A DNA stretch of 64,000 bases. Origin: Sandaracinus amylolyticus (lineage in GTDB: Bacteria; Myxococcota_A; Polyangia; Polyangiales; Sandaracinaceae). The translations under genes were made by a program, and so were the position numbers. A model generated the notes under the pieces. It did not search any database and was not told the origin of the DNA. It saw only the letters and a list, made by a program, of their open reading frames with translations. This document shows positions 3,342-58,411 of the stretch, in pieces. The stretch is from positions 7,006,001 through 7,070,000 of the forward strand of contig NZ_CP070225.1 of the NCBI RefSeq assembly GCF_021631985.1, in the 5' to 3' direction. Position 1 is the first letter of the stretch; every line of letters starts with the position of its first letter.

Positions 3342-3443
3342 CTCAACCACGGTCGGGTTTCGTCTACGATTTAGGACGCAAAACTCAACCACGGTCAGCT
3401 TCCGTACCACCATCCACAGACACAAAACCTCAACCACGGTCGG
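3342..3443 (+). repeat. Intergenic repeat cluster A: three direct 15-mers
   Basis: Copies of CTCAACCACGGTCGG lie at 3342-3356 and 3429-3443, with a one-base variant (ending CAG) at 3384-3398. All three are in the same orientation, 42 and 45 bases apart. The sequences between them differ. Each copy is preceded by a short A-rich run (ACAAAC, GCAAAA, ACAAAAC). They fill the gap between the acyltransferase and the nuclease gene. No promoter was recognised inside. Confidence 0.9.
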
Positions 3444-9333: not shown

Positions 9334-10449
9334 ATGACGCGCAAGGCGACGACGTACTGGGACTACATCAAGGTCGAGGAGATCACGTCGCTCCAGGGCG
9401 GGCTCGAGGAGAGCGACGCGGGGCTCTCGAACGACGAGGTGCTCTTCATCACCGTGCACCAGATCGACGAGCTCTGGCTGAAGCTCGCGCTGCGCGAGCT
9501 GGTGTCCGTGCGTGGGCTGTTCGCGCAGGAGCGCGTGCCGGAGCAGTCGCTCGCGAGCGCGGTGCGCGGTCTTCGTCGGATGGCGCTGCTGTTCCATCAC
9601 ATCGCGCAGCACTTCGCGCTGATGGAGACGATGACGACGCGCGACTATCTCGCGTTCCGCGACAAGCTCTCGCCCGCGAGCGGGTTCCAGTCGGCGCAGC
9701 TGCGCGAGATCGAGATCCTGATGGGGTTGCGGGACTCGGAGCGGATCGCGCTGGGGCACGAACATGGGTACATGCAGGCGCTGCGGGCGCCGGATGGGAC
9801 GGAGTCGGCGGCGTCGCGCCGCGTCGCCGCGCGCCTCACGGACCGACCGACGTTGAGGGAAGCGCTGGATGAATGGCTGTTCCGCACACCGATCCAGGGC
9901 AGCACGCCGGACCGCGCGGGCGATGCCGAGACGGTGCGGAGGTTCGTCGAGCAGTACCTCGAGGCGCACGCGGGAGAGGTGCGCCGCGCGCAAGAGCTCG
10001 CGATGCACGACGCGCTCACGCCGCACGACGTCGAGCGGCTACGGGCCCGCTACGAGAAGGAGGTCGCGGGAGCGCGCGCGTTCCTCGAGGCGAGCGATGT
10101 GCCGGAAGACGAGCGCGCGCGGCGCGCGCGGGTGCGCGCGGCGTTGGTGTTCATCGAGGGCTATCGCGAGCTGCCGCTGTTGGCGTGGCCTCGCGAGGTG
10201 ATCGACGCGATCGTCGCGATCGAGCAGGCGTTCGTGATCTTCCGACAGCGGCACGCACGCATGGTCGAGCGGGTGATCGGACGTCGTACGGGGACCGGTG
10301 GCTCGGCCGGCGTGGACTATCTGGACCAGACGGCGCTGCGGTATCGGATCTTCCACGATGTGTGGGCGGTGCGGACGCTGTTGATCCGCGCGCAGGCGCT
10401 GCCGCCGGTGGAGACGCCGGAGGCGTACGCGTTGGGCGTTGGGCAGTAG
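9334..10449 (+). CDS. kynA: Tryptophan 2,3-dioxygenase
   Basis: A 371-residue heme enzyme that opens the indole ring of L-tryptophan to N-formylkynurenine, the first step of the kynurenine pathway. Conserved blocks are clear: FITVHQIDELWLKLALRE, SGFQSAQLREIEILMG, and near the C-terminus HARMVERVIGRRTGTGGSAG followed by YLDQTALRYRIFHDVW. His307 in the third block is the expected axial heme ligand. The ATG at 9334 matches the family N-terminus (TYWDYIKVEEITSLQ); an upstream GTG at 9289 would add unrelated residues. No other kynurenine genes are adjacent. Confidence 0.93.
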   Translation: MTRKATTYWDYIKVEEITSLQGGLEESDAGLSNDEVLFITVHQIDELWLKLALRELVSVRGLFAQERVPEQSLASAVRGLRRMALLFHHIAQHFALMETMTTRDYLAFRDKLSPASGFQSAQLREIEILMGLRDSERIALGHEHGYMQALRAPDGTESAASRRVAARLTDRPTLREALDEWLFRTPIQGSTPDRAGDAETVRRFVEQYLEAHAGEVRRAQELAMHDALTPHDVERLRARYEKEVAGARAFLEASDVPEDERARRARVRAALVFIEGYRELPLLAWPREVIDAIVAIEQAFVIFRQRHARMVERVIGRRTGTGGSAGVDYLDQTALRYRIFHDVWAVRTLLIRAQALPPVETPEAYALGVGQ

Positions 10450-10463
10450 GATCGGGCGCCGGG

Positions 10464-10478
10464 CTCAACCACGGTGAG
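10464..10478 (+). repeat. Degenerate copy of the 15-mer repeat, 3' side of the RAYT-like gene
   Basis: CTCAACCACGGTGAG matches the family for its first 12 bases. It lies between the convergent ends of the dioxygenase and the transposase-like gene. Confidence 0.6.
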
Positions 10479-10528
10479 TGGTTTCGGGCCTCGGCGCCGC
10501 GGAGTTCGAGGGACGCCACGCGAGGAGC

Positions 10529-11452
10529 TCAAGCGGCGTCTGCGAGCGCGTGGACCGCAACACGGTGCGTTCGCAACATCGACCACGTTCCCGCTGGGAA
10601 CGTCACGGCACGATCGCCGGCGCGCCATCGCGCCATCGCGTCGTGATAGGCGCGACGGAATTCACGGAGCTCGCGGATGGCCTCGACGAGCTCCGTCGCT
10701 CTTCCTCGGCCGACCGCGAACGTCGGATTTCGCTTTCGGACCGGTTCGTGGGCTCGTGCACGAACGTGCGGCGCGACGGACTGGCAACGACGCGCACCGA
10801 GGAACGCGACGCCACGGGCTCTGACTTCGATCCTCGCGTCGCGCTCCTGGCGCTCCACCTCTTGTGCGATCGCGCGTCGCATTTCGTCTGGGCTCCAGCC
10901 GCTCGAGATGCTCGGGAACGGGCTGAGCTCGAGCTCGACCGCGTCGGGCCACTGTTCGTTGTGAGGATCGAAGAACATCGGCGGACGACGCGCCTTCAAC
11001 ACGCCACGTCCGATCTCCCGTGGGCGCGTCTGCACTCCGGGCCAATCCTTCGCCTCTCGCACGAGCCCGGCGAGCACTGGATTGGCAATCGCGTAGGCGC
11101 TCTTCTGCACGACCGCATCGCGCGTACGAAGCTCGACGATGGATGAAGGCTCGTGATCCCAGACTGCTCCTTCCCATCTCCGGAGCACCTTGGTCCCGAG
11201 CGCGACCCAGCGATGCAGATCACGGAGAAAATCGGGAAGAACGCCGGCGACGTCGGTCACGACGAGGTGCTCGTGCGTGCTCATCAGAGTCGCAACGTGG
11301 ACGAGAACCCCGTGTTTGCGCGCGCACAGCGCGAGCGCGTACACGAAGAGGTTCCGCATCTGCTCGTCGGGCCGAAAGAGATGATGCCGACGCAGCGTGC
11401 GGCGGGTGATCAAGACGGTGGATCCTGGGCGAACGATGCGTGGCTGTGTCAT
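10529..11452 (-). CDS. REP-associated tyrosine transposase-like protein (RAYT / Y1-Tnp)
   Basis: 307 residues. The N-terminal half carries the landmarks of Y1 (IS200-like) single-strand transposases. LMSTHEHLVVTD (His60 and His62) is the metal-binding HUH-type motif, and the block AYAIANPVLAGLVREAKDWPG matches the YIxxNPVRAGLV signature, with Tyr120 the likely nucleophile. The C-terminal ~130 residues are Arg-rich and not recognised. RAYTs are normally single genes that process short palindromic REP repeats rather than moving themselves. Degenerate members of the local 15-mer repeat flank this gene on both sides. Codon use does not differ visibly from its neighbours. Confidence 0.8.
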   Translation of the reverse strand: MTQPRIVRPGSTVLITRRTLRRHHLFRPDEQMRNLFVYALALCARKHGVLVHVATLMSTHEHLVVTDVAGVLPDFLRDLHRWVALGTKVLRRWEGAVWDHEPSSIVELRTRDAVVQKSAYAIANPVLAGLVREAKDWPGVQTRPREIGRGVLKARRPPMFFDPHNEQWPDAVELELSPFPSISSGWSPDEMRRAIAQEVERQERDARIEVRARGVAFLGARRCQSVAPHVRARAHEPVRKRNPTFAVGRGRATELVEAIRELREFRRAYHDAMARWRAGDRAVTFPAGTWSMLRTHRVAVHALADAA

Positions 11453-11535
11453 GCGCGCGCATCGAGCAATCGCCGGACCGGTCGGGGCGCGAGCGAAAGG
11501 CTCGGGGTGATGGATGAGAAGTGGCGGAGGCTGGC

Positions 11536-11652
11536 GGCGGGCGTCTGACGGCCGTCAGGTCGTCGAGTCGAAAGCTCAACGTCGGTCGGTTCGCTCTCCG
11601 GGCGCTCCGGCATCCAGCACCGCTGCGCTCATCCGGCCCAACCACGGACGGG
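11536..11652 (+). repeat. Degenerate composite repeat upstream of the RAYT-like gene
   Basis: Two 11-bp units (11536-11546 and 11547-11557; complement of the TGACGCCCGYC type) are followed by CTCAACGTCGGTCGG at 11575-11589 and CCCAACCACGGACGG at 11638-11652. The 15-mers each differ from consensus at two positions. The second abuts the protease stop codon. The same order of units is seen in clusters at 39 kb and 46.7 kb. Confidence 0.65.
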
Positions 11653-12933: not shown

Positions 12934-13238
12934 CGCCACCTCCCACGGAAACCGGTCGTACTCCGACATCGTGCACGAGAGCGGGTTCCGTGGACACCGG
13001 GCGGCAGCTCAACGTGGGACGGGATCGCCGCGACCCTAGCCGGGGACAGCCCCAGGCTCACGCAGAGTCAACCACGGTCGGTGCGCGGGTCTCATCAACG
13101 CTCGGCACACGACTCCCGGGTCAACCACGGTCGGCCCACACCCCCCGCGCGCCGCCTCGCACACGCGAGGCGAGCGCGCGCCATCCGCGCGCGGACGTAG
13201 CATCCAAATTTCTCACGACGCCGCTCAGGGCACGTCGC
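12934..13238. other. Intergenic region between divergent genes, holding repeat cluster B
   Basis: This 305-bp gap separates the protease start from the small gene at 13239. It holds two good repeat copies, GTCAACCACGGTCGG at 13067-13081 and 13120-13134, 53 bases apart. It also holds weaker relatives at 13008-13022 (CTCAACGTGGGACGG) and around 13091. No convincing promoter elements were seen. This is the only cluster here between divergent genes. Confidence 0.7.
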
Positions 13239-16390: not shown

Positions 16391-17524
16391 ATGCGTCCAT
16401 TCCTCGACCGCGCCGCATCCGTCCTCGTCGCGCTCACGCTGCTGATCACCGCGACCGCGTGCAGCATCCTCGTCGACCCCGACGAAGGCAGGCTGGGCCA
16501 GCAATCGGGCGTCGACGGAGGACCGCCACCCGACGCGTTCCCGGGCGTGCCGTGCGATCTGGAGTGCGACGACGGCATCGTGTGCACGGTCGATCGCTGC
16601 CTCGACGGCGCATGCGTGCACCAGCGCGACGACGGCGCATGCGGCGGCCCGGGTGACGCGTGCGTCGGCATCCGGACGTGCGATCCCCCGCGCTCCGCGA
16701 ACGACAGCGGCTGCGTCTTCGGCGCACCCATCGAGTGCGACGACGGTGTCCCGTGCACCGACGACGAGTGCGATCCCGAGAGCGGCACCTGCCGCTTCGT
16801 GCCCGACCACGGCGCGTGCGACGACGGCATCGACTGCACGCTCGACCTCTGCGATCCGTCGCGCGACGACAACGGGTGCACGCACGCCGCGGACGACGCG
16901 ATCTGCGACGATGGCTTCTGTCGCTCCGGCGGTCGGTGTGACCCCGCGCGCGGCTGCACCGGAGGCACGGCGCGCGACTGCAGCGACACCTCGCGCTGCA
17001 CGACCGATCGCTGCGACGAGGTCCTGGCGATGTGCGTGCGCACCGTCGTCGACGCCGACGGTGACGGCTTCACCGCGCAGCGCGTGCTCGGCGAGTCGTG
17101 CATCGACGGGACCGACTGCGACGACGCGCGCGCCGCGGTGCACCCCGGCGCGACCGAGGTCTGCAGCAACGCGATCGACGACGACTGCGACGGCGCACCC
17201 GACGACGGCTGCGGCGGGTGCCGTCCGATCGCGGGCGCGTGCCCGAGCGGCTGGACGTACTCGAACGACGGGCGCGATCACACGTGCTCGGTGTCGTTCA
17301 CCCCGCCCTTCGGCGTGCGCGAGTACTGTCGCTACTCCGAAGAAGGCGTGCTCGGCTTCTATTGGATGCTCGCGGTGCCCTACAACTGCCCGTCGGGCGC
17401 GCGGTACGCGCCGAACGCGGCCACCGGCTACTGCTTGTGGGAAGGCCTCACGCTCCCCGCGGGCGCGACGATCGACTGCACCTCGGTGGGCTCGGGGCGC
17501 ATGTCGTTCCGCTGGCCCTGCTGA
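16391..17524 (+). CDS. Cys-rich lipoprotein with MopE-like metal-binding motif
   Basis: 377 residues with a lipoprotein signal (LLITATAC lipobox) preceded by GGAG. About eight Cys-rich units of the DGIxCTxDxCxxxxxxC type follow. One copy of the MopE/Cu-binding signature then appears, DADGDGFTAQRVL continuing through CDDARAAVHPGATEVC and NAIDDDCDGAPDDGC. A C-terminal ~100-residue domain contains further Cys pairs. In the Myxococcota such proteins are surface lipoproteins that may bind Ca2+ or Cu. The metal and role are unproven. It is followed by repeat cluster C. Confidence 0.8.
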   Translation: MRPFLDRAASVLVALTLLITATACSILVDPDEGRLGQQSGVDGGPPPDAFPGVPCDLECDDGIVCTVDRCLDGACVHQRDDGACGGPGDACVGIRTCDPPRSANDSGCVFGAPIECDDGVPCTDDECDPESGTCRFVPDHGACDDGIDCTLDLCDPSRDDNGCTHAADDAICDDGFCRSGGRCDPARGCTGGTARDCSDTSRCTTDRCDEVLAMCVRTVVDADGDGFTAQRVLGESCIDGTDCDDARAAVHPGATEVCSNAIDDDCDGAPDDGCGGCRPIAGACPSGWTYSNDGRDHTCSVSFTPPFGVREYCRYSEEGVLGFYWMLAVPYNCPSGARYAPNAATGYCLWEGLTLPAGATIDCTSVGSGRMSFRWPC

Positions 17525-17567: not shown

Positions 17568-17649
17568 CTCAACCACGGTCGGTCCGGCACTGGCGTGCAG
17601 CGTCGCGCCGTACCGCGAAATGATTGAGGAAAACCTCAACCACGGTCGG
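17568..17649 (+). repeat. Intergenic repeat cluster C: two direct 15-mers
   Basis: Perfect CTCAACCACGGTCGG at 17568-17582 and 17635-17649, 67 bases apart in the same orientation. A-rich leads (GAAAAAG and GGAAAAC) precede each. The cluster lies between the convergent ends of the lipoprotein and kinase genes. Confidence 0.9.
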
Positions 17650-38904: not shown

Positions 38905-39104
38905 CCGACCGGGGTTGAGGGAGGGAACGCGAATTCCCTTTTGTTTTCGCGTCCTCGGAACCGACCGTGGTTGAGGTTTGATGACGCCCGTCAGACGCCC
39001 GCCTGGCGCCCGTCACCTCGAAACCCGACCGTGGTTGAGCGTTCTGCTGACGCCCGCCTGACGCCCGCCTGACGCCCGCCACCGCCAACCCGACCGTGGT
39101 TGAG
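38905..39104 (-). repeat. Intergenic repeat cluster D: four 15-mers with two sets of 11-bp iterons
   Basis: On the minus strand, CTCAACCACGGTCGG is at 39090-39104, 39025-39039 and 38961-38975, and a one-base variant (CCCCGG centre) at 38905-38919. Spacings are 56, 64 and 65. Two of the three spacers hold three 11-bp units: 38982-39014 (TGACGCCCGTC type, degenerate) and 39048-39080 (TGACGCCCGCC, three perfect copies). The cluster fills the gap between two convergent genes. Confidence 0.9.
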
Positions 39105-46605: not shown

Positions 46606-46752
46606 CCGACCGGGGTTGAGATCTTCCGCGGAATTACGGCCCAATTCGCACCGGGGGCGACACGCCACGAACCGACCGTGGTTGAGCTCTGGCCTGGCGC
46701 CCGTCGGACGGCCGCCAGGCGCCCGCCACCCCGAGAACCGACCGTGGTTGAG
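46606..46752 (-). repeat. Intergenic repeat cluster E: three 15-mers with 11-bp iterons
   Basis: On the minus strand, CTCAACCACGGTCGG is at 46738-46752 and 46672-46686, and the CCCCGG-centre variant at 46606-46620; both spacings are 66. The second spacer holds three 11-bp units (46695-46705, 46706-46716, 46717-46727) of the type in cluster D, followed likewise by ACC. The cluster lies between convergent genes. Confidence 0.9.
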
Positions 46753-58109: not shown

Positions 58110-58411
58110 GGAGAGGCGCGGCAGCAGATCCTGCGCCAACGCGGATCTGCGGCGGAGCGGGAACGAGGTGTTCGGCGGACCGGACGAGAGGGGGTCGGGA
58201 GTGTCTGGTGGGGAGGACAGGCGCGGGGCGAGGGCCGACCGTGGTTGAGGTTTTGGGCCTGATCTGGGGATGCCCGTTCGTGGTCGGAAACCGACCGTGG
58301 TTGAGCTTCGTGGCCCTCTCCGCGGACCCCCAACCACGGTCGAAAACCGACCGTGGTTGAGGTTCCCGACGGAAATCACTCACGATTTCCGCCCACCCCC
58401 ACCAAGCGACC
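58110..58411. other. Intergenic region holding repeat cluster F
   Basis: This 302-bp gap lies between the LuxR gene start and the aldo/keto reductase stop. Its first ~120 bp might still be coding if LuxR starts upstream; the rest is dominated by the repeats. No promoter for LuxR was recognised. Confidence 0.6.
58235..58361 (-). repeat. Intergenic repeat cluster F: three 15-mers plus one inverted partner
   Basis: On the minus strand, CTCAACCACGGTCGG is at 58347-58361, 58291-58305 and 58235-58249, exactly 56 apart. A plus-strand copy, CAACCACGGTCG at 58331-58342, faces CGACCGTGGTTG at 58348-58359 across AAAAC, giving a perfect 12-bp stem. This is the only inverted pair seen in the window. Confidence 0.9.

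Follow-up and report, generated by a model that had tools for sequence, protein, structure and literature searches.

A RAYT-like Y1 transposase and probable cognate REP-like repeats concentrated near its gene in two Sandaracinus genomes

REP sequences accumulated near rayt, within about 200 kb, were reported in 2010 for three marine gammaproteobacteria and for Thauera, and a preferential local production of REPs near the gene was suggested (PMC2817692, in the sections covering these genomes). The relevant part of PMC3733652 describes most REP families as distributed over the whole genome, and the long-tailed TnpAY1 subclasses 2.1 and 2.3 are presented without REP-like sequences in the corresponding portion of PMC6006769. 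The locus described here lies in a stretch of 64,000 nucleotides, hereafter the window (G000:C1:7006001-7070000), of the 10.96 Mb genome G000 of Sandaracinus amylolyticus. As in the systems of PMC2817692, to the extent that its text details them, a Y1 transposase accompanies repeats concentrated near the gene, palindromic ones there and, in full units, here; pairing and locality are therefore of a kind already known from 2010. The hosts here are Myxococcota, whereas the local-REP hosts in those sections are proteobacteria. Unlike what is described there, the population is found at orthologous positions of two species, a GTGG ahead of a short hairpin is confined to full units, and the protein extends into a tail of some 150 residues. 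New are the RAYT clade, the atypical nature of the repeat and its conservation at orthologous positions. No title on myxobacterial REPs was found in a search of a literature collection with few subscription journals. The locus is very probably a RAYT, a TnpAREP-like Y1 transposase, with its cognate REP-like repeats.

The gene occupies positions 10529..11452 of the window on the minus strand and encodes a 307-long RAYT-like Y1 HUH protein with a C-terminal FPAGT. Its translation bears out the HEH motif at residues 60-62 and Tyr120 in AYAIANP, both of which had been read in the preliminary description. H60, H62 and Y120 are invariant across 28 aligned homologues, as is a P-x-G-T motif in the C-terminal tail. 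The middle residue of the HUH motif is Glu, not hydrophobic, in the ten RAYTs of G000 and of its congener G008 in which the motif was read; the survey of upstream and downstream cores also took in two further G008 RAYTs (7.677 and 1.522 Mb), which are absent from the protein alignment and tree. The model NF047646 (REP_Tyr_transpos) is matched by 28 of the 28 homologues at E <= 0.01. It scores the window protein at 44.8 bits, below the curated cut-off of 80, and the protein is therefore named RAYT-like, not a member by that model. Pfam and PHROGs gave no match to it at E <= 0.01. The profile of the 28 homologues has as its top PDB match E. coli TnpAREP (4ER8; E 6.4e-5). The AlphaFold model of the window protein (pLDDT 89.5) aligns with the same structure over 155 residues (Z 14.1, rmsd 3.0), followed by the IS608 and ISDra2 transposases with Z 8-10. 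The Y1 HUH fold with HxH and the tyrosine of Y---NP by which RAYT/TnpAREP proteins are recognised are thus found in the predicted fold and in the alignment, and on these grounds the ORF is assigned to the TnpAREP/RAYT kind.

Comparison with the three nearest groups of proteins refines this assignment. The window protein shares with E. coli TnpAREP the fold of the catalytic part, HxH and the tyrosine, but the latter is 165 residues long, is 16-18% identical and lacks the central Glu of the window HUH motif. With TnpAY1 2.1 and 2.3 it has in common the Y---NP motif and a long C-terminal extension, whereas the window-type RAYT comes with repeats; PMC6006769, in the part that deals with these subclasses, supports a comparison of features, not a subclass assignment. 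The IS200/IS605 transposases IS608 and ISDra2 have the same core fold, and differ from the window type in that the latter has a class 2 Y motif (Y---NP, as PMC6006769 defines it in that part), diverged copies and dispersed short units. The other five G000 RAYTs are 53-55% identical to the window protein, and in DNA comparisons between genomes RAYT paralogues agree at about 66-80%. The near-identical multiple copies expected of an IS200/IS605 insertion sequence are not seen among the RAYTs of G000.

At up to 3 mismatches CCGACCGTGGTTGAG is present 29 times in the window against 3.21 expected, a number reached by none of 100 shuffles. The surroundings of the gene are as had been described before: three degenerate minus-strand 15-mers that each differ from CCGACCGTGGTTGAG at 2 positions, and two 11-bp units. 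The 15-mers are CTCACCGTGGTTGAG 3' of the gene (10464..10478), the leader copy CCGACCGACGTTGAG (11575..11589), which starts 137 bases before the ATG, and a second upstream copy CCGTCCGTGGTTGGG (11637..11651). The 11-bp units (11536-11546 and 11547-11557, minus strand) lie between the gene and the leader 15-mer. Downstream of the G008 orthologue CCCACCGTGGTTGAG is found. An inverted CCGACCGACGTTGAG on the plus strand (9843..9857) sits within a tryptophan 2,3-dioxygenase gene, in G008 too (790618-790632), and could reflect either coincidence in coding sequence or an old insertion. Three arrays of the window are on the minus strand: F (3342..3443; 3 copies, 2 of them exact), E (13067..13134; 2 copies, 1 mismatch) and D (17568..17649; 2 exact copies, one with the full hairpin-2 tail). 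The plus strand carries C (38905..39104; 4 copies and two runs of three 11-mers), B (46606..46752; 3 copies with 11-mers) and A (58235..58361; 3 exact direct copies and one inverted degenerate copy at 58329-58343). The 11-mer is ruled out as an independent repeat, with 67 occurrences in the window at 2 mismatches against 76 expected. A stricter form is enriched in the arrays (37 occurrences in 4,429 bases, compared with 233 in 1.3 Mb; both strands were counted, and near-palindromic units hence twice) but in 5 of 14 places only. The claim that clusters lacking the gene repeat its composite order holds, by the start positions of the 11-mers, for arrays C and B, where these follow the 15-mer, and fails for arrays H and K, where they precede it. 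Elsewhere in the window, a 37-base motif of the form GTGCGACGACGG...TGC recurs imperfectly (16564-16852) and may encode a cysteine-rich repeat.

All six G000 RAYTs are preceded on the gene strand by the core CCRACC[CG]ACGTTGMG, at 72-74 bases from the start in five of them and at 137 in the window gene. A GC-rich palindrome-like stretch, recognised by eye, lies ahead of the leader core in the five others, and 11-mers come after it in the window gene and its G008 orthologue. The full dispersed unit consists of 11-mers, about 9 bases, CCGACCGTGG and a hairpin TTGAGG-TTTT-CCTCAA. Two full units fold as DNA with z of -4.6 and -4.3, two leaders with -3.3 and -0.8, and the inverted core pair of array A with -7.3. 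The core alone gives about -0.4 (-0.39), and the 15-mer by itself as a strong hairpin is unsupported. A stem of at least 6 pairs at the 3' half of the core is present in 19 of 64 copies against 6.06 expected, with 0 of 1000 shuffles as high. At the place of the GT[AG]G foot of a REP palindrome, full units have GTGG (GTGG-TTGAGG-TTTT-CCTCAA), though only 9 of the 64 copies keep the exact tail, and most leaders have CACG. Leader and dispersed cores differ (ACGTTG versus TGGTTG). The tail of the dispersed unit is one loop base away from the leader of the G008 RAYT at 7.677 Mb, a resemblance suggesting that the dispersed units may descend from the 5' leader of a RAYT.

Exact CCGACCGTGGTTGAG is found 28 times in G000 against 0 for the reversed pattern, and 82 against 17 at up to 2 mismatches. 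Twenty-two exact copies lie at 6.77-7.06 Mb, within 243 kb of the window RAYT (7.0165 Mb), and the remaining six at 9.87-10.17 Mb. In 11-mer counts made without a preset pattern, no word of 6.82-7.22 Mb is more over-represented than the repeat. It does not rank first in any of the remaining five G000 stretches examined, yet GACCGTGGTTG appears 5 times in 9.86-10.02 Mb. Other words stood out in these counts: one around CGGACGGTAGG, perhaps of a second repeat family, is over-represented in 6.06-6.26 and 9.86-10.02 Mb, and words of CCGCCTCCGGGTGGTGG occur 9-13 times in the 200-kb stretch 3.60-3.80 Mb. Matches to the CCRACCNNSGTTGVG pattern number 51 in G000 and 56 in G008 (2 and 0 for the reversed control), of which 45 and 52, a few by chance, are dispersed and not leaders. 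The many intergenic copies that characterise a REP sequence are thus present, at a copy number low for REPs.

With leader copies excluded there are 23 dispersed clusters in each genome. Those within 250 kb of the window RAYT number 11 in G000 (1.07 expected; binomial P 1.8e-9) and those within 250 kb of the window-type RAYT 12 in G008 (1.11 expected; P 1.4e-10), clusters being taken as independent and the two genomes not being independent of each other, since most sites are common to both. Counting any RAYT, 19 of 23 clusters in each genome lie within 250 kb, a distance that covers 25% and 29% of the chromosomes, and four clusters per genome are farther away. The dispersed clusters may be a non-autonomous element, as had been proposed. 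The single nearby source gene of that proposal is contradicted by the six RAYTs of the genome. Confinement of the repeats to about 250 kb might also be expected of a laterally acquired block that brought RAYT and repeats together, the latter being the remnant of a donor's genome-wide population and no local spread having taken place; a widely spread population of related core indeed exists in Sorangium cellulosum So ce26. We consider this origin unlikely: gene order around the RAYT is common to G000 and G008 at about 90% identity, G+C is even along the window (0.697-0.730) and a second, smaller group of repeats surrounds the G000 RAYTs at 9.785 and 9.973 Mb.

Genome G008 (10.3 Mb, same genus) carries the orthologue of the window RAYT, 86% identical, at 0.789 Mb. 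Of its 31 exact 15-mers, 30 are at 0.610-1.008 Mb, within 220 kb of this gene. Ten arrays near the gene and array K (9.866 Mb) occupy orthologous sites in the two genomes. Over all 11 array pairs identity is 477/537 in the core, 685/1177 in the spacer and 1621/1966 in the flank. In the equal-copy pairs (B, G, H, I, K) it is 207/210 (98.6%), 299/449 (67%) and 898/1087, respectively, a contrast between core and spacer that is somewhat inflated because the alignments are anchored on cores, themselves picked for similarity at up to 2 mismatches, and because tandem copies are possibly mispaired. Since the ten near-gene arrays are orthologous, there has been little visible spread from the window RAYT since the split, and the arrays near the gene are mostly older than the separation of the species, not the product of fresh spread. 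A G008 array at 0.610 Mb has no counterpart within the G000 stretches compared. This five-copy array (G008:C1:610363-610604) lies where synteny with G000 7.2146 Mb stops in those stretches, a possible rearrangement point.

The congeners differ by the presence or absence of two RAYT genes and one array, differences for which gain and loss are alike possible. The G000 RAYT at 9.973 Mb (1,065 unmatched bases) corresponds to 32 bases at the G008 site and the G008 RAYT at 4.459 Mb (1,398 unmatched bases) to 21 bases at the G000 site. The array at 9975986-9976115, 2.3 kb from the polymorphic 9.973-Mb RAYT, accounts for 183 bases in G000 against 4 in G008. The single copy at 10.079 Mb has a variant form in G008, where the one at 10.172 Mb is not recognisable. 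The G008 RAYT paralogue at G008:C1:1521676-1522590 shows an in-frame TGA in the search alignment and is possibly decaying.

The exact 15-mer is found in 6 of 377 genomes of the phylum, with more than one copy in G000 and G008 only and one in each of four others. Both multi-copy genomes carry a RAYT, and no repeat population without a RAYT was found among the 377. Another congener, G009, has no RAYT match and two 1-mismatch 15-mers against one in the control. RAYT matches occur in 8 of 10 genomes of the family, all except G004 and G009. A scan of named genomes gave three relatives, one in Minicystis rosea (55%) and two in So ce26 (54% and 52%). Thirteen So ce26 stretches plus one further locus were examined and five RAYTs located. 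In a survey of 18 RAYTs (12 of G000 and G008, 5 of So ce26, 1 of Minicystis) the core lies on the gene strand within 1 kb upstream of 16, with a variant in the other two; relatives with unrelated repeats, which would speak against the pairing, were not found among them. The core is inverted within 1 kb downstream of nine; two of these copies are the one inside the dioxygenase gene, the sole inverted copy on the downstream side of the window gene, and its G008 counterpart. The orientation of the cores is somewhat mixed: an opposite-strand core is also present upstream of 4 of the 18 and a same-strand core downstream of 3. As background, the 12-base core pattern occurs 11 times in 540 kb of G000 sequence that surrounds three other RAYTs.

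All five So ce26 RAYTs have cores within 1 kb (12-base pattern), upstream on the gene strand and downstream inverted. The one at 4.335 Mb has upstream GACCGTGGTTG, the dispersed Sandaracinus-type core, and its nearest array of the 15-base pattern is more than 4 kb away. Pattern matches in So ce26 number 192, with 1 in the control, and the places among the 100 matches listed span 0.17-6.17 Mb, so that the repeats are widely spread there. In Minicystis two CTCACCCACGTTGGCG copies lie upstream of the RAYT and the genome has 9 matches against 4 in the control, no clear population. Four genomes of one genus (G299, G345, G372, G374) and G075 have 0-4 pattern matches. More distant RAYTs of G001, G005, G006 and G007 (36-43% identity) are without the core, 8 of 11 having another leader word and 3 neither; one So ce26 RAYT carries both. 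The leader word AAGTRCGNGAGATCA was counted at 1 mismatch 18, 4, 12 and 16 times in these four genomes (controls 0, 1, 0, 0), which have 7, 3, 20 and 26 RAYT matches: no large population, with a small one possible in G001. A tree of 31 RAYTs groups the proteins of G000, G008, Sorangium and Minicystis with support 87/88; it is drawn open and the grouping is therefore unsure. Its automatic leader labels, covering 160 bases upstream, missed the Sorangium cores, and the survey was repeated over 1 kb.

The placement of the arrays relative to genes bears on whether the 15-mers might be host sites, for a regulator or a chromosome-organising protein, that lie near the RAYT by chance with a degenerate copy in its promoter. 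In a crude ORF scoring, 10 of the 12 multi-copy arrays (all but E and D) face an antiparallel gene whose 3' end is within 79 bases, and this regularity would suit such sites, as would the near-identity of cores between species in the five equal-copy pairs. Three of the 12 arrays (I, E, A) and 5 of 18 places overlap an ORF call, maybe a false one; 13 of 18 do not. An origin signal is ruled out because dnaA is no closer than 1.1 Mb to the arrays in either genome, the chromosomes being taken as circular. This distance, the inverted cores on both sides of So ce26 RAYT relatives, the complete lack of one array in G008 and the missing population in G009, which has no RAYT match, make host sites quite improbable. 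Tandem duplication and gene conversion in a few ancient arrays, with no need of a transposase, agree with the unequal copy numbers of orthologous arrays at up to 2 mismatches (A 3 versus 7, C 4 versus 6) but leave unexplained why one core recurs at more than a dozen separate sites and beside most RAYTs, and why the site at 9.976 Mb is empty, and are very unlikely.

The pairing of RAYT and repeats looks real and old because the repeats stay within about 250 kb of the RAYT in two species and a related core lies beside the Sorangium relatives. We favour a scheme in which the protein would bind core and hairpin as single-stranded DNA and Tyr120 would cut such DNA at the core. The short units, which would derive from a RAYT 5' leader, would be copied or moved preferentially to nearby intergenic sites and then kept there for long times by rewriting or selection. 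More speculatively, and with considerable doubt on our part, this Myxococcota RAYT clade could keep chromosome-local sites whose core is fixed by selection or continual RAYT-dependent rewriting while the surroundings drift, a domesticated system that would work on a single chromosomal stretch and not a genome-wide parasite.

What RAYTs do for their hosts is, to our knowledge, unsettled. Congeners with reciprocal presence and absence of RAYTs, a polymorphic nearby array and a conserved local population constitute a natural experiment in which the upkeep of repeats by a RAYT, and the reason why they stay near the gene, become testable. In addition, REP-like repeats are hereby described for a long-tailed RAYT clade.
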